From assembly GCA_938084715.1 (NCBI GenBank), contig CALKES010000026.1:1-41020 (forward strand): DNA of 41,020 nucleotides, written 5' to 3'. The stretch is from Candidatus Bipolaricaulota bacterium. GTDB taxonomy: Bacteria > Bipolaricaulota > Bipolaricaulia > Bipolaricaulales > Bipolaricaulaceae. A program made the translations under genes and the position numbers. Numbering within the stretch: position 1 is the stretch's first letter; the number at the start of each line of letters is the position of its first letter. The notes beneath the pieces are model-generated. The model saw only the letters and a program-made list of their open reading frames with translations. It did not search any database and was not told the DNA's origin. Shown piece after piece: positions 8,575 to 32,243 of the stretch.

Positions 8575-8661
8575 GCCGAGGTGGCGGAATTGGCAGACGC
8601 GCTGTCTTGAGGGGGCAGTGGGCTTCGGCCTGTGTGGGTTCAAATCCCACCCTCGGCACCA
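8575..8661 (+). tRNA. tRNA-Leu (anticodon GAG)
   Basis: A class II tRNA with long variable arm: acceptor GCCGAGG pairs with CCTCGGC, D arm GCGGAATTGGCAGACGC, anticodon stem CTGTC/GGCAG around loop TTGAGGG (anticodon GAG), variable stem, and T arm with GGTTCAAATCC. CCA is encoded (8659-8661). Decodes CUC/CUU leucine codons. Confidence 0.95.
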
Positions 8662-12864: not shown

Positions 12865-13962
12865 ATGGCCCGCACCGTAGCCTTCCTGTTCGACAGCGGG
12901 GGAGGGCACGTGGTGGGCCGGGCCCGGACGGCCGCCGCCCGGGCCCTCGCACAGCGGTTGATGGACCATCCGCAGGTTGACGCGGTGGTCGTGGCCACGC
13001 CTGAGCCCCAGGCCTGGGAGGGGGAACCGGTGGTCGTGGAGCCCGACCCGCCCGGGCCGTGGCTGTTCGGAACTCGGTTCACCGAACTGGCGAAGAAATT
13101 TGGACCTGAGCGGCTCCTCTACTTTTCGGCGGGAAGCGGGCTCCTCCTCTCGGATTCCCTCCTCGACCGCCTGGTCGGGGCGGCCCCCGCCCCACCCCCG
13201 TTCGCCGTCCTCAACAACTTCTACTCCACGGACTTCGCCCTCCTCGTCCCCCCGTTTCCCCTTCCGGACCTGGGGCGAGACAACCCGATCGGGGCGCGGC
13301 TGTGGGGGGCCGGGTACGCCTGCTACGAACTGCCCCGGTCGTACGAGACCCTGTTTGACATCGACACCCCGGGGGAACTCCAGGTCCTCGCCCTCTCCCC
13401 AGATCTCCCCCTCCCCGTGAGGGAGGCCCTGGCGGACCTCTCCACCCGGCAAGCCGAGCGGCTTCTGGAGATCCTTGTCGACCCCGAGCGGGAGCTCGTG
13501 CTCCTCGGGCGGGTGGGGGGGCACCTCGCGCGGGAGCTTGAAGCGGGGGCGGCGTGCCGGGCGCGGATTCTTTCTGAAGAACGGGGGATGGAGTCGAGCG
13601 GCCGGGCCGAGCGGGGGGCGGTGCGGTCCCTCGTCGGGTCCCTCCTCCACGGCCGGACCCCGGCCGGGCTCGTGGAGCTCCTCGCCCAGTTCGGGGACGC
13701 CGTGGTATGGGACACCCGGGTCGTGATGGCCCACCTCGGGTTCTGGCCCCCCCCGGAGGAGCGGTTCGCCTCGGACCTCCTGGACCTCGGGGGGATCCAC
13801 CACCCCCTCCTCCGGGAGCTCACCGCGGCCTGCGCCGCCTCCCCGGTCCCGTTCCTCCTCGGCGGCCACGCCCTCGTCTCGGGGGGGATGTACCTGGCCC
13901 TCGAGCTCGCCTGGCGGGGGGAGGACCGGGAAGCCCGGTTCCGGCCCCTTCCCTTCTCGTAG
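12865..13962 (+). CDS. Unknown protein, possibly GT-A-type nucleotidyltransferase-like N-domain
   Basis: 365 residues. I do not recognise a family with certainty. The N-terminal ~185 residues (start VAFLFDSGGGHVVGRARTAA, FSAGSGLLLSDSLLDRL, end ETLFDIDTPGELQVLAL) recall the CofC/MobA-type nucleotidyltransferase layout, where a DIDTPEDL-like motif closes the domain. That is inference. The C-terminal half (about 190-365) contains VGSLLHGRTPAGLVELLAQFGDAVVWDTRVV and LLDLGGIHHPLLRELTAA and is unassigned. It starts 9 nt after rpsR without a clear ribosome site and ends 9 nt before glyA-gcvT, so it is probably cotranscribed with both. Confidence 0.6.
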   Translation: MARTVAFLFDSGGGHVVGRARTAAARALAQRLMDHPQVDAVVVATPEPQAWEGEPVVVEPDPPGPWLFGTRFTELAKKFGPERLLYFSAGSGLLLSDSLLDRLVGAAPAPPPFAVLNNFYSTDFALLVPPFPLPDLGRDNPIGARLWGAGYACYELPRSYETLFDIDTPGELQVLALSPDLPLPVREALADLSTRQAERLLEILVDPERELVLLGRVGGHLARELEAGAACRARILSEERGMESSGRAERGAVRSLVGSLLHGRTPAGLVELLAQFGDAVVWDTRVVMAHLGFWPPPEERFASDLLDLGGIHHPLLRELTAACAASPVPFLLGGHALVSGGMYLALELAWRGEDREARFRPLPFS

Positions 13963-13971
13963 GAGACCCCG

Positions 13972-16900
13972 ATGAAAGACGACCTTTGGCAGCGCGAACT
14001 TTCGGCGATCGACCCGGCGCTCGCGGCCCTGATCCGGGCCGAGGAGGAGCGGCAGCGGGACAAGATCATCCTCATCCCGTCGGAGTCGTGGACCCCCCGG
14101 CCGGTGCGGGAGGCCCTGGCCTCGGCGTTCACCTCGATCTACGCCGAAGGGTACCCCCGGGAGGAGCTCCTTCGGCTCCCCGAGGACCGGATCGCCGACC
14201 TGGAGGAGCAACTCGCCTACTTCCGCCGGTACAGCGACCGGCGGTTCTACAAGGGGGTGGAGCTCGCCGACCTCGTGGAGGCCCTGGCCTGCCGCCGGGC
14301 AGCGGAGGCGTTCGCCACCGAAGCCGTCCGCCCCGAGGACATCTTCGCCAACGTCCAGGCCCTGTCCGGCGCCGCGGCAAACATGGCGATCTACGAGGCC
14401 CTGCTGCAGCCCGGGGACACCCTGATGGCGATGGACCTCTCCCAAGGGGGGCACCTCTCCCACGGCTCCCCGTTCCACCAGTCCGGCCGCAGGTACAGGA
14501 TGGTCCGGTACGGGGTCGATCCGAAGACGGAGCGGCTTGACTACGACAGGATCCGGGAGCTGGCGCGGGAGAGCCGGCCGAAGATGATCGTCGCCGGCTA
14601 CACCTCCTACCCCTGGGCCCCGGACTGGAAGGCGTTCCGGGAGATCGCCTCGGGCTGCGGGGCCCTGCTCCTGGCGGACATCGCCCACACCGCGGGGATG
14701 GCCGCCGCCGGGGCCTACCCCACCCCGGTGGGGTACGCCGACGTCGTCATGTTCACGACCCACAAGACGCTCCTCGGGCCGCGGGGGGCGGTGATCCTGT
14801 CCTTCGACCCGGAGATCGCTGCTCGGATCGACGCCGCGGTGTTCCCCGGGGCCCAAGGGGGGCCCCACGTGAACAAGTGGGCGGGGATCGCGGCAGCGCT
14901 CACGCTGGCCCGCACCGAGGCGTTCCGGGATCTCCAGCACAAGATCGTGGCGAACGCCAAGGCCCTCGCCGCGGCCCTCGCCCGCCAGGGGCTCCGCCTC
15001 GCCTACGGGGGGACGGACACCCACCTCCTCGTGATCGACCTCCGGCCGATCCCCACCCCCAACGGGGAGCCCCTGATGGGGGAGATCGCGGCCCGGATCC
15101 TCGACCTCGCCGGCCTCGTGGCGAACAAGAACACGATCCCCGGGGACCTCTCCGCCGCCGATGCCCGGGGGATCCGGTACGGGACCCCGTGGGTCACCCA
15201 GCGGGGGATGGGGGAGAGGGAGATGGAGGAGATCGCCGAGGTCACGAAGATGGTCCTGACCTCGATCCGGCCGTTCACCTACCACGGGATCAGCGGCCCC
15301 CTCCCCCGGGGGAAGCTCCCCCTCCCCGCCCTCGAGGAGGCGCGGGCCCGGGTCGGGGAGCTCGCCGCCCGGTTCGGGGGGGCGAGGCCGAAGCGCCCCC
15401 GGAGCGGGGCGATCCTCGTCCGCGGAGGCCGGGCTGCCCACCTCCTCCACGAGGCGGGGACGGCCCCCGTCCTCTCCCTTGAACCCGGCCAGGCCCGGCG
15501 GACCCTGTTCCTCAACCCCGAGGGGGAGCTCCTCGCCGAGGGGATCGTGGGCCGCCTCCCCGACCCCCCCGACGGCCGGCCCCGGTTCGCCGTCCTCGCC
15601 CCCTCTGCCCAGGCCCCGGCCCTCGAACGGTGGCTTTCCGCCCTGGCCGACGGCTACGTCCTGTTCGACCCGGACCTCCACCGCAAGGTCCAGGGCCCGG
15701 CGGTCGTGGAGCCGTTCGGGGGGAAGGCGGACCTGCGCCTGGAGGACGGAACCGAAATCCAAATTGGAAGAGGAGAACCGCTGTTTCTGGGGGTCAGGTC
15801 CCCGGAGGAGCGCCCGGAGCTCGTCGCCCCCCGAAAGCCCTACTTCGTGGGCTGCCACCGGTTCTCCCTCCCCGAGGGGAAGGATCCCTACACGCCTTCC
15901 GCCCCAGGAGGGGAGATCGCCCGCACGCCCCTTGGATCCTGGCACCGGGAGGCGGGGGCGCGGATGGCCCCGTTTGCCGGGTTCGAGATGCCCCTCTGGT
16001 ACACCTCGGCCCTCGCCGAGCACCGGGCGGTCCGGGAGCGGGCAGGGCTCTTTGACCTCGGCCACATGGGGGTGTTGGAGGTCGAGGGACGGTACGCCGA
16101 GAGCTTCCTCAACCTCGTGACGACGAACTACGCGGGCTGGCTCCGCTCCGGCCAGTCCCAGTACGCGTTCCTCCTCACCCCCGACGGACGGGTGATCGAC
16201 GACCTCATCGTCTACCGGGAGGCCGACGAGCGGTTCCTCCTCGTCGTGAACGCCGCCAACGCCGGGAAGGACTGGGATTGGCTCTCCGCGGTGAACTCCG
16301 GGAGGATCCGCCTTGATCCGGACCGGCCGTGGGTCGAGCCCGACGGACCCGTGACCCTCCGGGACCACCGGTCAGGGGCCGACGCCCTCGTCGACCTCGC
16401 CCTCCAGGGCCCGCGCGCCCGGGCGGTCCTCCTCGCCCTCCTCTCCCGACCCGAGCGCCACCGCCTCGTCGCCCTCCGGCGGACGGAGTTCTGCCCGCTG
16501 ACCCTCCACGGGGTTCCCGTCCTCTGCGCCCGGACGGGGTACACGGGGGAGGCCGTAGGGTACGAGCTCCTCGTCCCGGCGCCGGAGGCGGGGAGGGTGT
16601 GGGAGGCGATCCTTGAGGCCGGGAAGCCCTTCGGGATCAGCCCCGTGGGCCTGGCGGCCCGGGACTCCCTCCGGACCGAGGCCGGCCTCCCCCTCTACGG
16701 CCACGAGCTCGGGGGGGAGCACGAAGTCCTCCCCCACGAGGCGGGGTTTGCCCCGTACGTGAAGCTTCACAAGCCGTTCTTCGTGGGCCGGGAGGCGTAC
16801 AAGCGGGCGCTGGGGTCGTGGAGCCGGGAGGTCGTCCGGTTCTCGATCCCGCCCGGCGCTCGGCCGGTGCGGGCCGGAGCCCCCGTCGTCGATAGCTCCG

Positions 16901-17136
16901 GAACCGTTGTCGGAGCCGTCACGAGCTGCGTCGTCCTGGAGGAGGGGCAGGTGGGGATGGCCCTCCTCTTCCGGAGAGGAATCACCCCCGACACGCCTCT
17001 CGGGTTCGTCCTTGGGGGGGAGCGGGGCCTCCCCGCCGAGCTCAAGCCCGGGGCGAGGGTTCCCCTCGTGGTCTCGGGCCGGGTCCTCCCCCGGTTCCTC
17101 CGGAAGGAAACCCTTCCCCGGGGCGGGGAGGACTAG
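13972..17136 (+). CDS. Fused serine hydroxymethyltransferase - aminomethyltransferase (GlyA-GcvT)
   Basis: One uninterrupted 1054-codon frame. Residues 1 to about 440 are SHMT (serine + THF to glycine + methylene-THF): YAEGYP near 58, [11 protein letters not shown], and the PLP lysine Lys265 in [13 protein letters not shown]. Residues about 651-1054 are GcvT, the T-protein of glycine cleavage (aminomethyl-lipoyl-H + THF to methylene-THF + ammonia): [74 protein letters not shown] and [12 protein letters not shown]. The middle (about 460-650) looks like a third, eroded GcvT/YgfZ-type domain ([20 protein letters not shown]). Both active sites seem intact. GGAGA ribosome site. Stops on the same CTAG as the convergent lon. 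Confidence 0.92.
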
Positions 17137-19532
17137 GTCTCGTCCTCTTCTTCCTCCCGGAGGCGGGACCGGATCTCCTCCAGCCGGTCGGCGGCCTTCC
17201 GAAACAGGGTCCCCTCGGGGTAGTTCCCCTCCCCGTCCGGCTCCCCCGCCGGGAGGCCGAAGAGGAGCTCCACCCCTTCCTCCACCGTGGAGCAGGCCCA
17301 GACGTGGAACTTCCCCCCGGCCACCGCCTCGGCTACCTCCTCGGGGAGCATGAGCTCGTCGACGTTCCCCTGGGGGATGATCACCCCTTGGCTCCCGTCG
17401 AGCCCGAGCTCCCGGCACACGAGGAAGTGGCCCTCGACCTTCTCGTTGATCCCCCCCACGGGCTGGAGCCGGCCCTTTTGGTCCACCGCCCCGGTCACCG
17501 CGACCCCCTGCCGGGCCGGAACCCCGGCCAGGGCGGAGAGGAGGGCGTAGAGCTCCGCGGCCGAGGCCGAGTCCCCTTCCACCCCTGAGTAGGACTGCTC
17601 CAGGGCCAGGCTCGCCCCAAGGGTGAGGGGCTTCCGGCCCCCGAACTGGGCGGCGAGGTACCCCTTGAGGATCATCACCCCCTTCGTGTGGAGCTTGCCC
17701 CCGAGCTCCGCCTCCCGCTCGATGTCCACGACCCCGCTTTTGGCCGTGAACACGTTGGCCGTGATCCGGGTGGGTTTCCCAAACGCGAAGTCCCCGAGGT
17801 CGAGGACCGCCAGGCCGTTCACCTGCCCCACCTTCGCCCCGTGGACGTCGACGATGAGCTTGCCCCGGGCGATCCACTCCCGGACCTTCTCCGCAAGGAG
17901 GGCGTGGCGGGACCGGCCCTTGGCGATCGCCTGCCGGACGTGGCCCGCATCGACGACGGACGCCCCGGCGGCGCGGGCCCAGAAGCTCGCCTCGGCGACG
18001 AGGGCCGAGAGGGCCCCAAACCGGGTAGAGAGCTTCGTCTGATCGGAGGCGAGCTCCGCGGCGTACTCCACGAGCCGCGCCACCCCCGACGGGGAAAAGG
18101 GGAGCACCGCCGGGTTCTCCTCCCGGCAGGCGCGGACGAAGTGGGCCAGGGCCCGCTCCCCGTCCTCGGTCCACGGCATCTCGGTGTCGAAGTCGGCCCG
18201 GACCCCAAACAGCTTCCGGAAGTCCTCGTCGTAGGCGTAGAGGAGGTAGTAGAGGTAGAGGGGGCCGACGAGGACGACCTTCACGTCCAAGGGCACCGGC
18301 TCCGGCCGGAGGCCCTCGGTGGAGGAGAGGCCCAGCATCTGGGCCGGGTCCTCGGTCCGGATCTCCCCGGCCATGAGCGCGGTCTTGAGGGCCTCCCAGG
18401 AGAGGGGGAACCGGAGGAGGTTCGTGACGCTGAGGACGAGGTACCCCCCGTTGGCCCGGTGGAGGGCCCCACCCCGGATCTGGGTGAAGTCCGTCGTCAC
18501 CGCCCCGAGCTGAAACCGCCGCTCGATCGTCCCAAACAGGTTCGTGTACGTGGCGTTCCCCTCCACGACCACCGGGGCCCCCACGGCCTCCGCGCGGTCC
18601 ACCACCACGTTGACCCGGTAGCGGAGGAAGCGGTCCCCCTCCGGGATCGGGAACGGAAGCCCGGGGACGGCCTTCTTGTTCCCCGCAAAGGCGTCCACGC
18701 TCTCCAGGACGTCGGCCTTCACCTCATCGAGGAAGCTCTGAACCCGCTCGAGCCCCGCGTACTTCGCCCGGAGGGCCGCGAGACGAGGCTCGAGGAGGAA
18801 CTCCACCGCCTCCCGGTGGAGCTTCCGCTGGATCTCCCCCCAGGCCTCGTCGAGGCGGGACAGGCGCCCGAACGCGTCCTGGACGAGAGACTGGAGCTCC
18901 TCCTGCCGCCGAAGGACCCCCGCCCGTTCCTCCTCCGATAGGGCCCCGTACTCCTCCTGGGAGTAGGGGGTGCCGTCCCCCTTCAGGGGGATCGTGTGGA
19001 TCCCCAGCGGCGTCCGCTGGAGGGCGAACCCGAGTTCCCCCGCCCGCCGCTCCAAGGCCCGAAACTCCTCCTCCCGCTCCCGGGAGATCCGCTCCCGCTC
19101 CCGCTTCTCCCGGGCCTTGAACTCCTCGGACTCCAGGACCCGGGGGACCTCCTGGGAGAGGAACTCCACCAGCCGGTCCATGTCCCCCTTGAGCTCCCGG
19201 CCCCGCCCCGCGGGGAGGAGGAGGTACCGGGGGGCGTGGGGGACGCGGAAGTTGTGGACGTAGACAAGGTCCGGGGGCACGGGCCGGGTCGAGGCGACCT
19301 CGGCCAGGAGGCGGGACACGGCCGAGGTCTTCCCCAGCCCCGGCTCCCCAGCGACGTAGAGGTTGTACCGGTGCTCGGGGTCCGGGATGGAGAGCCCCAG
19401 GCGAAGGGCGTCCAACGCCCGCTCCTGGCCGACGATCTCCCGGAGCGGGGGAAGCTCATCCGTGGTGGAAAACGGGAACTGCCGCGGATCACAGGTCCGC
19501 CGGAGCCGCTCGGGGGGCACTTCGTGGGGCAT
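17133..19532 (-). CDS. Lon-family ATP-dependent protease (AAA_32/Lon_C type)
   Basis: A 799-residue Lon-like protease of the COG1067 kind, without the classical Lon N-domain. Walker A GEPGLGKTS is at 62-70. The ATPase region is interrupted by a charged coiled-coil insert (about 125-260). HRANGGYLVLSVTNLL (AAA_32 feature) follows, then the proteolytic domain: EGDSASAAELYALLSAL with catalytic Ser655, and GGINEKVEGHF with Lys698. The Ser-Lys spacing of 43 equals that of E. coli Lon (679/722). A C-terminal acidic helix ends EEEEDET. The ATG at 19532 follows TATGAT by 8 nt without a ribosome site. It degrades unfolded or specific proteins in the cytosol; substrates unknown. Confidence 0.93.
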   Translation of the reverse strand: MPHEVPPERLRRTCDPRQFPFSTTDELPPLREIVGQERALDALRLGLSIPDPEHRYNLYVAGEPGLGKTSAVSRLLAEVASTRPVPPDLVYVHNFRVPHAPRYLLLPAGRGRELKGDMDRLVEFLSQEVPRVLESEEFKAREKRERERISREREEEFRALERRAGELGFALQRTPLGIHTIPLKGDGTPYSQEEYGALSEEERAGVLRRQEELQSLVQDAFGRLSRLDEAWGEIQRKLHREAVEFLLEPRLAALRAKYAGLERVQSFLDEVKADVLESVDAFAGNKKAVPGLPFPIPEGDRFLRYRVNVVVDRAEAVGAPVVVEGNATYTNLFGTIERRFQLGAVTTDFTQIRGGALHRANGGYLVLSVTNLLRFPLSWEALKTALMAGEIRTEDPAQMLGLSSTEGLRPEPVPLDVKVVLVGPLYLYYLLYAYDEDFRKLFGVRADFDTEMPWTEDGERALAHFVRACREENPAVLPFSPSGVARLVEYAAELASDQTKLSTRFGALSALVAEASFWARAAGASVVDAGHVRQAIAKGRSRHALLAEKVREWIARGKLIVDVHGAKVGQVNGLAVLDLGDFAFGKPTRITANVFTAKSGVVDIEREAELGGKLHTKGVMILKGYLAAQFGGRKPLTLGASLALEQSYSGVEGDSASAAELYALLSALAGVPARQGVAVTGAVDQKGRLQPVGGINEKVEGHFLVCRELGLDGSQGVIIPQGNVDELMLPEEVAEAVAGGKFHVWACSTVEEGVELLFGLPAGEPDGEGNYPEGTLFRKAADRLEEIRSRLREEEEDET

Positions 19533-21327: not shown

Positions 21328-23538
21328 CTAGCGGTCGCAGATCCCCGGGGCCCGCCCCGGCAGCACCTCGCAGATCGGGGTCCCCGTGAGCCACAGGGCG
21401 ATGATCGTCTTCATCGTCTCGTAGTCCACGATCCCCGGGGCGCAGGCCCGCGGGACCTTCGTCCCCTCAAGCCAGAACGCGATCGCCCGCTGGACCTGGG
21501 GGAACGTGATCTTGTCCGAAAGCGAGAGGTCAATCGTGTCCCGGGCCACGTCCCACCGGGAGATGGCCACGATCACGTTGAGGCAGTCGGTGAGGTCCAC
21601 CCGGTTGGCCCCGGTCACCTCGACCTCGATGCAGGGGTGACCGCTGTCGGCCCGCCCGGCGATCATCGCCCGGGACAGGACCTTGCACGGATCGGGGGGA
21701 GTCGACTCCACCGTCACCGTCGGCGGGACCTCGACCTGGTAGATGATCGTCTTCGTCTGGCCAGCCTTGAGAAGGCCAGGGAACGCCCACTGGTCCACGC
21801 CCGGTTTGTAGGTGAACCCGTCGTTCTGGATCGGAGTCACCCGCCAGCCCACGGGGAGGTCCTCGTCGAGGCCGACCCCGTAGACGTCGCGATCCGTGGT
21901 GATCTCCACCTTGACCGTGAACTTGTTGCCGACCACGTTACCGGCGGAGTCGTAGAACCCGATGACCACGCCCTCGCAGGGGATCGGGGTGATGATCCAC
22001 CGCCGGGCCTGGAGGTTGGGGGTGGGCATCGCCGGAAGCGGCTGGTCGATCGAGATGCAGGAGACCGCGTAGGCGGCGATGAGCTTCAGGGTGTGGAGGT
22101 CGATCCGCTCTCCGCAGGTCTTGACCACGGGCCGGTCCGTCCGCCACAGCTCCACCGCCCGGGCCAGCTGCTCGGTCGTGATCGCCTCTGAGAGCCGGAG
22201 GTCAACCCGGTCCTCCTCCCCGGGCCTCGAAGCCGGGACGAGGTGGGCGACGGCCTCGAGGACGGAGAGACAGTCGTTCACGAGGAAGCAGGACTCCCCG
22301 GCGACCTCGAACTCGAAATCCGGGACCTTGGCCTGGAACGTCCCCGTAATGCAGAACTGCTGCGGAAGCCGGATCGAGGCCAGGAGCTCGACCTTGGGCA
22401 CCGTCACGTCGTAGATGATGATCCGTTCGGTTCCGGCTTTGATCGGCTCCAGGAACACCCACTGGACCTCGGGCCGGTGGAAGACGGCCCCGCCGTTCTG
22501 GACCGGGGTGATCTCCCAGCCCACGGGCGGGTTCTCATCCAAGCCCGCTCCCACCAGGTCCTGGTCGGTGTAGATCCTCACCTGGACCCGGAACGTGTAC
22601 CCTGGGAGGGCGGTCGTCGTGGAGATCGAGCGGACGGCGGTGGCAGTCAGCGCGGACACGACGATGGGGAGGGCGAACGTCCCTTCCATCCCCACGTTGT
22701 CCACCACGGTCAGCCGGACGGTGTAAGTCCCCCCGGCGAGGTAGGCGTACTGGACCCGGGGCTCCGTGCTCTCCAGGTCCACGACCCCATCCCCGTTGAA
22801 GTCCCACTTGTAGCGGACGATCCGCCCGTCGGGGTCCGTGCTCCCCGAGGCGTCGAAGGTCACCTGCTGGCGCGCCCGCGGGGCGGCCGGGGTCACCACG
22901 AGCCGGGCCGTGGGGGGCTGGTTCCTCATCCCCTCGATCACGATCGTCTCGGTGGTGTTGAGCTCCAGGCGCGTCGGGACGTTGATGTTCCCCGACTTGA
23001 ACACGATCCGGCTCACCCCGGAGGTCGCCCCTGGCACGAGGGTGATCCGGAACTCTTCAGGAAGGGGCCCCAGCACCCCGCCGTCGGTGCTGCCGTCGCC
23101 CCACGTCCACAGGACCTGGAACTCGTCGTTTGTCCGCACGTACTCATCGTTGAGCTCGGGGAGGAAAAAGGCCAGGAACGGAATGCCCGTGTCGTCCTTG
23201 ACCACGAAATCGGCCCCCGCGGGGACCCCACGCAGGGTGAGGCGGGCGTTGCCTCCGGTTCCGGTCCCCGCTTTGTTCAGGATGAAAAACAGGAAAAGGT
23301 TTTGAGTCGTGGGTTCCCGGTATAGGAAGAGGACAAGGTTTCTGGTCTCGGCGAGCTCGTTTCCACTTCGGGACTGGCCGCCATCGTAGGCGTAGAACTC
23401 CGTGGCCGGCCGCGCCCCGGCCAGGGGCGGGACCGCGGCCCTCACCGCTCCCTGGGTCACCTGAAAGTAGCCCTGGGCGCTCAAGGGCAGGGCGACGGCC
23501 AGGGAAATCACGAACAGTAGGCTGGTCTTCCTCATCAT
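21328..23538 (-). CDS. Large secreted PKD protein with duplicated Cys-containing dockerin-like module
   Basis: 736 residues. The ATG at 23538 has AAGGAGG 6 nt upstream and is preferred to the longer frame. Signal peptide about 2-20 (RKTSLLFVISLAVALPLSAQ). An N-terminal beta region (about 21-200) is followed by a PKD domain (about 206-283, FDASGSTDPDG, YKWDFNGDGVVDLE, GGTYTVRLTVVD). Then a module occurs twice (about 305-500 and 520-733). Each copy has a beta half (GLDENPPVGWEITPVQNGG / GLDEDLPVGWRVTPIQNDG) and a helical half with paired cysteines (DCLSVLEAVAHL... / DCLNVIVAISRW..., ending ELW.TDRPV and AFWLEGTKVP...IIALWLTGTPIC). The helical half resembles dockerin-type repeats. Likely a cell-surface or extracellular adhesion/scaffold protein; function unknown. 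Confidence 0.8.
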   Translation of the reverse strand: MMRKTSLLFVISLAVALPLSAQGYFQVTQGAVRAAVPPLAGARPATEFYAYDGGQSRSGNELAETRNLVLFLYREPTTQNLFLFFILNKAGTGTGGNARLTLRGVPAGADFVVKDDTGIPFLAFFLPELNDEYVRTNDEFQVLWTWGDGSTDGGVLGPLPEEFRITLVPGATSGVSRIVFKSGNINVPTRLELNTTETIVIEGMRNQPPTARLVVTPAAPRARQQVTFDASGSTDPDGRIVRYKWDFNGDGVVDLESTEPRVQYAYLAGGTYTVRLTVVDNVGMEGTFALPIVVSALTATAVRSISTTTALPGYTFRVQVRIYTDQDLVGAGLDENPPVGWEITPVQNGGAVFHRPEVQWVFLEPIKAGTERIIIYDVTVPKVELLASIRLPQQFCITGTFQAKVPDFEFEVAGESCFLVNDCLSVLEAVAHLVPASRPGEEDRVDLRLSEAITTEQLARAVELWRTDRPVVKTCGERIDLHTLKLIAAYAVSCISIDQPLPAMPTPNLQARRWIITPIPCEGVVIGFYDSAGNVVGNKFTVKVEITTDRDVYGVGLDEDLPVGWRVTPIQNDGFTYKPGVDQWAFPGLLKAGQTKTIIYQVEVPPTVTVESTPPDPCKVLSRAMIAGRADSGHPCIEVEVTGANRVDLTDCLNVIVAISRWDVARDTIDLSLSDKITFPQVQRAIAFWLEGTKVPRACAPGIVDYETMKTIIALWLTGTPICEVLPGRAPGICDR

Positions 23539-23569
23539 CGTCAACCTCCTTGCCACATGCACTGAGAAC

Positions 23570-30095: not shown

Positions 30096-32192
30096 GTGGA
30101 CTTCGACGAACTGGACGTTTTAGCCGTCAACACCCTGCGGTTTCTCGCCCTGGACATGGTGGAGGAGGCGAGGTCCGGGCACCCCGGGCTCCCCCTGGGG
30201 GCAGCCCCCATGGCGTGGGCCCTCGGGAGCCGGCACCTCAAGGTGAGCCCCGGGGATCCGGCCTGGCCCGACCGGGACCGGTTCGTCCTCTCCGCCGGCC
30301 ACGGCTCGGCCCTCCTCTACGCCCTTCTCCACCTGTGGGGCTTCCTCCCCTTGGAGGAGCTCCGGGCGTTTCGGAAGCTGGGGAGCCGGACCCCGGGGCA
30401 CCCCGAGGCCGGGCTCACCCCGGGGGTCGAGGCGACGACGGGCCCCCTGGGCCAGGGCCTGGCCAACGCCGTGGGGATGGCGATCGCCGAGGCCCACCTC
30501 GCGGCGACCTTCAACCGCCCGGGGTTCCCGATCGTGGACCACTACACCTACGTTCTGGCGAGCGACGGGGACCTCATGGAGGGGGTGGCGGCGGAGGCGG
30601 CGTCCCTGGCCGGGCACCTCCGGCTCGGAAAGCTCGTCGTCCTCTACGACCAAAACCGGGTCTCCCTCGCCGGCTCCACGGACCTCGCGTTCACCGAGGA
30701 CGTCCCGGCCCGGTTCCGAGCCTACGGGTGGCACGTCCTCGAGCTCGCGGACGGGAACGACCTTTCGGCGGTTGACCGGGCGATCCGCGAGGCCAAGGCG
30801 GAGGGGGAGCGACCTTCCCTCCTGTGCGTCCGGACGACGATCGGCTACGGGGCCCCCACGAAGGCGGGAACCTACCACGCCCACGGCTCGCCCCTTGGGC
30901 CCGAGGAGGTCCGGGGGGCGAAGCGCGCTTTGGGTTGGCCCGAGGAGCCCCCGTTCCTCGTCCCCGAGGAGGTCCGGGCGCGGACGGGCGAGCTCCAGAG
31001 GCGGGGCGAGGCAGCCCGCGGGGCCTGGGAGGAGCTGTTTGGCCGCTACGCCCGGGCGTACCCCGACCTCGCCCGGGAGTTCTCCCGCCGGATGAAGGGG
31101 AAGCTCCCCCCGGGCTGGGACGAGGGCCTCCCCTCGTTCCCGGGAGGGAAGCTCTCCACCCGCAAGGCGTCCGAGGCCGTCCTTCGGGCCCTGGGGGAGA
31201 GGGTCCCCGAGCTCGTGGGGGGATCGGCGGACCTCAACCCGTCGTGCCTAACCTGGCTTCCCGGGAAGGGGGACTTCGGCCCGGCGGCCCCCCCCGACCC
31301 CCAGGGGGAGGCCGGGGGCGGGTGGAGCTACGGGGGGAGGAACCTCCACTTCGGGGTCCGGGAGCACGGGATGGGGGCGATCGCCGTGGGGATGGCCCTC
31401 CACGGGGGGGTGCGGCCGTTTGTGGGGACGTTCCTCGTCTTCTCCGACTACATGCGCCCCCCCCTCCGCCTGGCCGCCCTCACCCACCTCCCCGTGGTCT
31501 TCGTCTTCACCCACGACTCGGTGGCCCTGGGGGAGGACGGGCCGACCCACCAGCCCGTGGAGCAGCTCATGAACCTCCGCTGCATCCCGGGCCTCGTCGT
31601 GATCCGCCCCTCCGACGCCGAGGAGGTCCGGGAGGCGTGGAGGTCCGCCCTCCGGCGGACGGAGGGGCCGACGGCCCTCGTTCTCACCCGCCAGGACGTC
31701 CCGGTCCTCGACCGGTCCTCGCTCGCCCCGGCCGAGGGCCTCGGCCGGGGGGCGTACGTCCTCTGGCAGGCGAAGGAAGGAACCCCAGACGCCATCCTCC
31801 TCGCCACGGGGTCCGAGGTCGCCTTGGCCCTCGAGGCCGGACGGGAGCTCGCCCGGGAGGGGGTCCACGCCCGGGTCGTGGCCGTCCCAAGCTGGGAGCT
31901 CTTCCTCGCCCAGCCCCCCGCGTACCGGGAGGAGGTCCTCCCCTCGCCCGTCCGGGCCCGGGTCGCGGTGGAGGCGGGGTGCCCGGTGGGTTGGGAGCGG
32001 TTCGTGGGCCTCGAGGGGGAGGTCGTGGGGATCTCCCGGTTTGGGGCGAGCGCCCCGGGGCCGGCGGTCCTCCGGGAGCTGGGGATCACGGTCGAGTCCG
32101 TCCTCGCCGCGGCCCGGCGGGTCCTGGCCCGAGTTGCCGCCCCAGGAGGCCAGGACTACCATGGACGGGACGGGCCCGTAGCTCAGGGGTAG
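30096..32192 (+). CDS. tkt: Transketolase
   Basis: A thiamine-diphosphate enzyme of the non-oxidative pentose phosphate pathway, transferring two-carbon ketol units between sugar phosphates. 698 residues from a GTG at 30096 with a strong GGAGGAGGAGG site. Motifs: [40 protein letters not shown], ThDP-binding SDGDLMEG followed by Asn in [47 protein letters not shown]. The C-terminus is extended: after the usual end ([11 protein letters not shown]) the frame runs about 25 more residues and its TAG (32190-32192) lies inside the tRNA gene, overlapping it by 21 bases. Confidence 0.96.
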
Positions 32193-32243
32193 AGCAGCCG
32201 GCTCATAACCGGTGGGTCGCAGGTTCAAACCCTGCCGGGCCCA
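32172..32243 (+). tRNA. tRNA with CAU anticodon (elongator Met or Ile2)
   Basis: Acceptor GGGCCCG/CGGGCCC fully paired, so not the initiator; D arm GCTCAGGGGTAGAGC; anticodon stem GCCGG/CCGGT with loop CTCATAA (anticodon CAU); T arm GCAGGTTCAAACCCTGC; discriminator A; CCA not encoded (next bases GAGG). It could be elongator tRNA-Met or the tRNA-Ile whose C34 is converted to lysidine by TilS. The GGTCGC-type variable/T region looks Ile2-like to me, but I cannot decide. Its 5' 21 bases overlap the end of tkt. Confidence 0.9.

Follow-up and report, generated by a model that had tools for sequence, protein, structure and literature searches.

A three-part SHMT-GcvT fusion protein with an eroded second GcvT domain in Candidatus Bipolaricaulota and other bacterial phyla

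GcvT-type folate domains are carried at the C-terminus of several enzymes that produce one-carbon units, including sarcosine oxidase alpha, DMGDH and TMAO demethylase, an arrangement commonly attributed to local capture of the unit on THF. Folds of this type also have other roles, as in DMGDH, sarcosine oxidase and YgfZ. The partners of the folate domain in the three former enzymes are flavin or metal demethylases, whereas the protein described here has an SHMT as partner and two GcvT copies. An SHMT-related domain within a larger fused protein is also found in fluorothreonine transaldolase (TIGR04506), but that enzyme has no GcvT and performs other chemistry, and the present fusion scores 90 versus 650 bits, far under the TIGR04506 cut-off. 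Each half is, by its fold, an ordinary member of its family, and GcvT-type domains on one-carbon-producing enzymes are already known. The combination of SHMT with GcvT, the eroded duplicate GcvT and the signature insert in the SHMT were not found as published descriptions in the open-access literature searched, an absence that is no proof of novelty; a paper on Acetothermia genomes mentions only degradation via the glycine cleavage system (PMC6092417), and the words 'fused' and 'fusion' are absent from a 2026 paper on the reductive glycine (rGly) route in Desulfobacterota (PMC12827605).

The gene lies in a window of 41,020 nucleotides, the whole stretch of DNA analysed, from a 1.38 Mb draft MAG of Candidatus Bipolaricaulota (96% complete, 38 contigs), and the closest matches to its protein were in Candidatus Bipolaricaulota (Acetothermia) MAGs. 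An earlier sequence-only reading had proposed that GlyA and GcvT share one frame of 1054 residues, and this was borne out by an open reading frame at exactly 13972-17136 on the forward strand with Pfam matches to both SHMT and GCV_T. The key residues that it named are also intact; the PLP lysine, Lys265, sits in the THKT motif, and residues 742-749 read IDDLIVYR, both invariant in 33 fusions. The fusion therefore stood, but the simple two-domain layout gave way to an SHMT with specific insertions, an eroded GcvT and a further GcvT. The features are as follows.

12865..13962, + strand: conserved upstream partner gene, 365 aa, predicted nucleotidyltransferase-like N-terminal fold (structural model and phyletic match)
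13961..13965, + strand: Shine-Dalgarno-like AGGAG, six bases 5' of the fusion ATG and sharing bases with the preceding gene's stop codon
13972..17136, + strand: SHMT-pseudoGcvT-GcvT fusion gene, ATG to stop, 1054 aa plus stop
13972..15366, + strand: SHMT part, residues 1-465 (Pfam, NF000586, Foldseek)
14161..14241, + strand: 27-residue element, residues 64-90, between SHMT Tyr57 and Tyr93; signature of the fused SHMT clade (alignment)
14764..14766, + strand: codon of Lys265, the PLP-binding lysine of SHMT, invariant in 33 fusions
15367..15915, + strand: middle domain, residues 466-648, an eroded second GcvT, catalytic Asp lost
15916..17133, + strand: GcvT (T-protein) part, residues 649-1054 (Pfam GCV_T; alignment with solved T-proteins)
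16195..16218, + strand: IDDLIVYR motif with catalytic Asp744, residues 742-749, invariant in 33 fusions; the Asp matches the site that is Asn in 3a8k

Upstream of the fusion, no riboswitch for glycine, THF or any other ligand reached the gathering threshold. The window also holds two tRNA genes on the + strand (8575-8658 and 32172-32243; Rfam) and, on the - strand, a gene for a 744-aa protein with a PKD domain (21328-23562) that is likely surface-exposed or secreted. A LonB/LonC-like protease gene (17133-19532, - strand; PF13654, PF20437), whose end overlaps the fusion stop by four bases, is a convergent neighbour that is conserved in Bipolaricaulota family f1.

The SHMT part matched PF00464 at residues 83-423 (E = 5.5e-113; 378 bits against a cut-off of 27), scored 409 bits with NF000586 (cut-off 335) and, in the structural model, superposed on solved SHMTs with TM values of 0.94-0.95 on target length (Foldseek). 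It shares with the stand-alone SHMT (GlyA) the fold, the PLP lysine and the catalytic Glu, Tyr, His, Asp and Arg, and all ten positions checked (Y57, E59, Y93, S132, H161, D236, H239, H264, K265 and R411) were invariant in the 33 fusions, with an identity of 42-47% to most stand-alone SHMTs. The fused SHMT differs in being joined at its C-terminus, in forming its own clade and in carrying two insertions that the stand-alone enzymes lack. The larger of these lies between the YAEGYP and RxFY motifs and measured exactly 27 residues in 60/60 aligned rows of fused or two-gene (split) proteins, compared with 2 residues in 55 stand-alone SHMTs; R85, R86 and R91 at its end were invariant. The smaller, of about 7 residues, is located near residue 120 in the fused and split rows. 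Profile spacing had hinted that the 27-residue insert is common to long PRK13580 SHMTs, an idea that was rejected because the PRK13580 rows have 2 residues there in the alignment; the fusion itself scored 293 bits with the model for PRK13580-type long SHMTs (NF010094), below the cut-off of 735. In solved SHMTs, the segment between YAEGYP and RxFY runs close to the dimer interface, alongside the site for substrate and folate, hence the insert would be a good candidate for contacting the attached domains.

The C-terminal part matched PF01571 (GCV_T) at residues 656-925 (E = 9e-83; 278 bits against a cut-off of 25.6) and aligned with the solved T-proteins 1yx2, 1woo and 3a8i, its catalytic Asp falling where 3a8k, an entry for E. 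coli GcvT, has Asp replaced by Asn. All 11 GcvT positions checked, among them D743/D744, N760, R854, Y857, E860, E865, R897 and R901, were invariant in the 33 fusions, as were all catalytic or ligand positions checked over the entire protein (21/21). The likeness to the glycine cleavage T-protein (GcvT; PF01571, TIGR00528) covers the catalytic Asp, the RTGYTGE and AARDSLR motifs and the whole length, while the differences are the SHMT carrier, the eroded second GcvT alongside and lower equivalog scores. The latter were near misses under the NCBIfam cut-offs (TIGR00528, 223.4 against 235.85; NF001567, 286.3 against 300), and for this reason the part was filed as a GCV_T-family protein, most likely one with T-protein function. 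It appears to be an unusual T-protein whose presence automatic naming may miss.

The region between these two parts is where the sequence-only reading had placed the join (about 15300-15950), but it is occupied by a third domain, a degenerate one of GcvT type, instead of a linker. A plain linker was rejected on the grounds of a weak GCV_T match (E = 2.2e-6; Pfam), a near-intact GcvT half in one relative and a conserved motif. The region measures 183 residues in the host fusion and 181 to 418 in the relatives; in L068 it amounts to the first half of a GcvT, preserved almost whole (E = 7e-38 to NF001567), and in L063 and L050 it aligns to GcvT over ~260 and ~220 residues, respectively. Since the middle region matches GcvT, and does so as a near-intact first half in L068, the parent protein was SHMT-GcvT-GcvT, with the middle GcvT having been eroded into a structural piece. 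The catalytic Asp pair is kept in 4/33 sequences and lost in the other 29, but the sequences share a new conserved motif, DGYxxFDxDxxxKxxGP, and G561, F565, K572, G575, P576 and F625 do not vary. The split forms of Anaerolineae keep this domain attached to SHMT, which suggests that it serves SHMT. Comparison with three congeners gave dN/dS values of ~0.14-0.21 for SHMT, 0.37-0.41 for the middle part and 0.21-0.25 for GcvT; purifying selection acts on all three parts and is weakest on the middle. The three-domain model, built using AlphaFold2 with 50 fusions, had a pLDDT of 88.9 and a pTM of 0.86.

The fused frame was present in full, or nearly so, in ~56 of the 92 Bipolaricaulota genomes with a completeness of at least 70%, several more being interrupted by contig ends, and it was intact in two single-contig assemblies (G004 and G009). 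Within the phylum, families f1, f2, f4 and f5 have the fusion, while families f3, f6, f8 and f9 lack it and encode glyA and gcvT as separate genes. For the two genomes of family f7 (G051 and G071), only SHMT-type matches and no GcvT were listed; G051 is without P-protein yet has GcvH, and seems to have lost the glycine cleavage system while retaining GcvH. Outside the phylum, the fusion was found in Anaerolineae, Thermoflexus included (many of the 150 genomes drawn), in MAGs of Spirochaetota, in those of Desulfarculaceae (3/148 genomes drawn from the phylum of the Desulfarculaceae record) and in MAGs bearing the labels Planctomycetota, Actinomycetes, Bdellovibrio and Deltaproteobacteria, although labels of draft MAGs may be wrong. 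The search for the same architecture elsewhere thus confirmed the fusion as real, but as a member of a widespread family that is not peculiar to the host genome.

Many of the fusion genomes outside Bipolaricaulota also hold a stand-alone glyA and some a stand-alone gcvT. Bipolaricaulota genomes of f1 and f2 are mostly without a stand-alone glyA, and in single-contig relatives the fusion is the sole SHMT and GcvT. Two f1 genomes (G014 and G027; L133 and L134) have an extra, distant stand-alone SHMT, ~42% identical and with the insert absent, which is either contamination or a second paralogue. Five Anaerolineae genomes (G122, G154, G182, G202 and G220; L222 and L229-L232) contain two different fusion copies each. 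In six Anaerolineae genomes the protein is carried as two genes, SHMT-middle (~600 aa) and GcvT (~420 aa), which are side by side in four of the six and on other contigs in two. Given these splits, the covalent SHMT-GcvT linkage is dispensable. The natural split versions (L213-L220) would be ideal controls for tests of channelling.

Fused and split rows formed a single clade in both the SHMT tree (100/100), apart from all stand-alone SHMTs, and the GcvT tree (100/99), and the distances of the two halves correlated with r = 0.93 (Mantel 0/2000), from which the halves travelled together. The family appears to trace to one ancient fusion, with both halves from the same event, that spread across phyla. 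In the SHMT tree, the f4 fusion clusters with Chloroflexota (99/91), suggestive of an exchange between phyla, and the nesting of the split Anaerolineae genes inside the fused clade (GcvT tree, 100/97) makes later fission in Anaerolineae the likelier reading. An origin from the stand-alone SHMT of Bipolaricaulota itself was rejected, as fused and stand-alone SHMTs do not group together (AU p = 1e-44); a history in which every Bipolaricaulota fusion was inherited vertically from a single ancestor was only weakly disfavoured (p = 0.04).

The gcvH, gcvPA and gcvPB genes, whose presence the sequence-only reading had left to be checked, are all in the host genome, in a row on contig 9 (58684-61249), so that the GcvP and GcvH required are at hand; FTHFS and FolD adjoin each other on contig 11. 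As judged from this gene content, the host pathway could degrade glycine and serine to methylene-THF and formate, or operate in the opposite direction. The fusion is in one cluster with gcvH, gcvPA and gcvPB in L044, L050 and L053, occupying the gcvT slot, and near them in L046 and L054. This position, together with its being the sole GcvT, indicates that the fused GcvT most likely works as the T-protein.

The upstream partner gene ends ten bases 5' of the fusion ATG, its stop codon overlapping the ribosome-binding site of the fusion, and lies directly upstream in most Bipolaricaulota fusions as well as in L044, L063 and L068. Among 79 Bipolaricaulota genomes with a completeness of at least 80%, it was present in 62/64 of the fusion families f1, f2, f4 and f5 and in 0/13 of f3, f6, f8 and f9, and both f7 genomes have a distant copy. 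The protein had no significant Pfam match. Its model (pLDDT 92.6) resembles guanylyltransferases of the CofC/FbiD type that act on 3-phosphoglycerate and PEP (Foldseek 7p97 and 6bwh) over ~210 residues at a modest TM of 0.62-0.69 on target, and a CofC/FbiD-like nucleotidyltransferase identity is a lead, not an assignment.

We consider it very probable that the fusion is a single bifunctional SHMT/T-protein enzyme in which the middle part is a dead GcvT kept as a structural element and THF is locally recycled. The N-terminal SHMT would interconvert serine and glycine with THF and methylene-THF, while the C-terminal GcvT would take aminomethyl-lipoate from the separately encoded GcvH to give methylene-THF. 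The middle part, a second and older GcvT that has lost its active site and roughly half of its length, would most likely be a rigid spacer or an oligomer or docking element for SHMT. Working together, the two sites could convert two glycine to serine, CO2 and NH3, or the reverse as in the reductive glycine route, with methylene-THF from one site used at the other and THF as a locally recycled carrier; the combined reaction requires THF in no more than catalytic amounts, in keeping with a local shuttle. The invariant active sites, the purifying selection on all parts, the single fused clade with correlated halves, the confident three-domain model and the company of gcvH, gcvPA and gcvPB speak for the bifunctional enzyme; the equivalog near misses of the GcvT part, the stand-alone glyA and gcvT copies of fusion genomes outside Bipolaricaulota and the split genes of Anaerolineae count against it. 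We infer both activities, the local folate recycling and the role of the middle part from sequence, and the channelling or coordinated serine-glycine interconversion proposed in the sequence-only reading is likewise a prediction.

That the gene is an assembly artefact, or a chance readthrough between adjacent glyA and gcvT, might be supposed of a draft MAG in 38 contigs, but this carries a negligible probability and is already refuted by the identical open frame in ~56 genomes of the phylum, single-contig ones included, and in independent assemblies of other phyla; the fusion is genuine. Neither of the two circumstances that would have undone the sequence-only reading was encountered: sequencing did not join two genes, and a search of the whole host genome with the fusion protein yielded the fusion locus as its sole match, with no second SHMT or GcvT. 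A more serious alternative is a bifunctional protein without channelling, in which the fusion persists mainly to secure a 1:1 ratio and joint expression of its parts, with methylene-THF free to diffuse to FolD, FTHFS and whatever else consumes it. The stable splits of Anaerolineae into neighbouring or remote genes, the separate genes of other Bipolaricaulota families and the alternative outlet offered by FTHFS and FolD all speak for it, and a fixed 1:1 ratio would by itself account for the fusion almost as well as a local shuttle; on the other hand, the middle domain remains on SHMT even in the split forms and the insert beside the active-site tyrosines of SHMT accompanies every fusion, both of which suggest more than co-expression. 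We regard this alternative as a real contender that falls somewhat short of an even chance, and its confidence overlaps with that of the bifunctional enzyme with local recycling, since a bifunctional protein is common to the two.

It is improbable, in our judgement, that only the SHMT works and that the GcvT parts are now folate-binding or regulatory, the last one having drifted from T-protein activity like the middle one. The loss of the catalytic Asp pair from the middle GcvT in 29/33 sequences, the scores of the GcvT part under the equivalog cut-offs and the other roles of GcvT-type folds in DMGDH, sarcosine oxidase and YgfZ are compatible with such drift, but it is opposed by the invariance of the 11 GcvT positions across phyla, by a host genome with H- and P-proteins and no other T-protein, and by the gcvT slot that the fusion takes in gcv clusters. 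A bolder elaboration of the bifunctional enzyme, which we hold to be rather unlikely, would be a dedicated one-carbon machine of SHMT dimers, with the dead GcvT as a folate tether or dock and the live GcvT beside it, THF swinging between sites without release and the nucleotidyltransferase-like partner (12865-13962) making or modifying a cofactor or precursor; this machine would have arisen a single time, spread through several phyla and displaced the standard glyA and gcvT from entire Bipolaricaulota families.

The glycine-serine couple, formed by glycine cleavage and SHMT, is the core of photorespiration and of the fixation of CO2 and formate by the reductive glycine route, and it supplies one-carbon units in every cell. 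A long-standing question, difficult to address with separate proteins, is whether methylene-THF passes directly between SHMT and T-protein, and a natural covalent fusion, long kept, present across phyla and with split relatives as built-in controls, makes this question directly testable. The fusion could also serve as a ready-made module for synthetic C1 assimilation, and it explains why annotations of such lineages may appear without gcvT or glyA.
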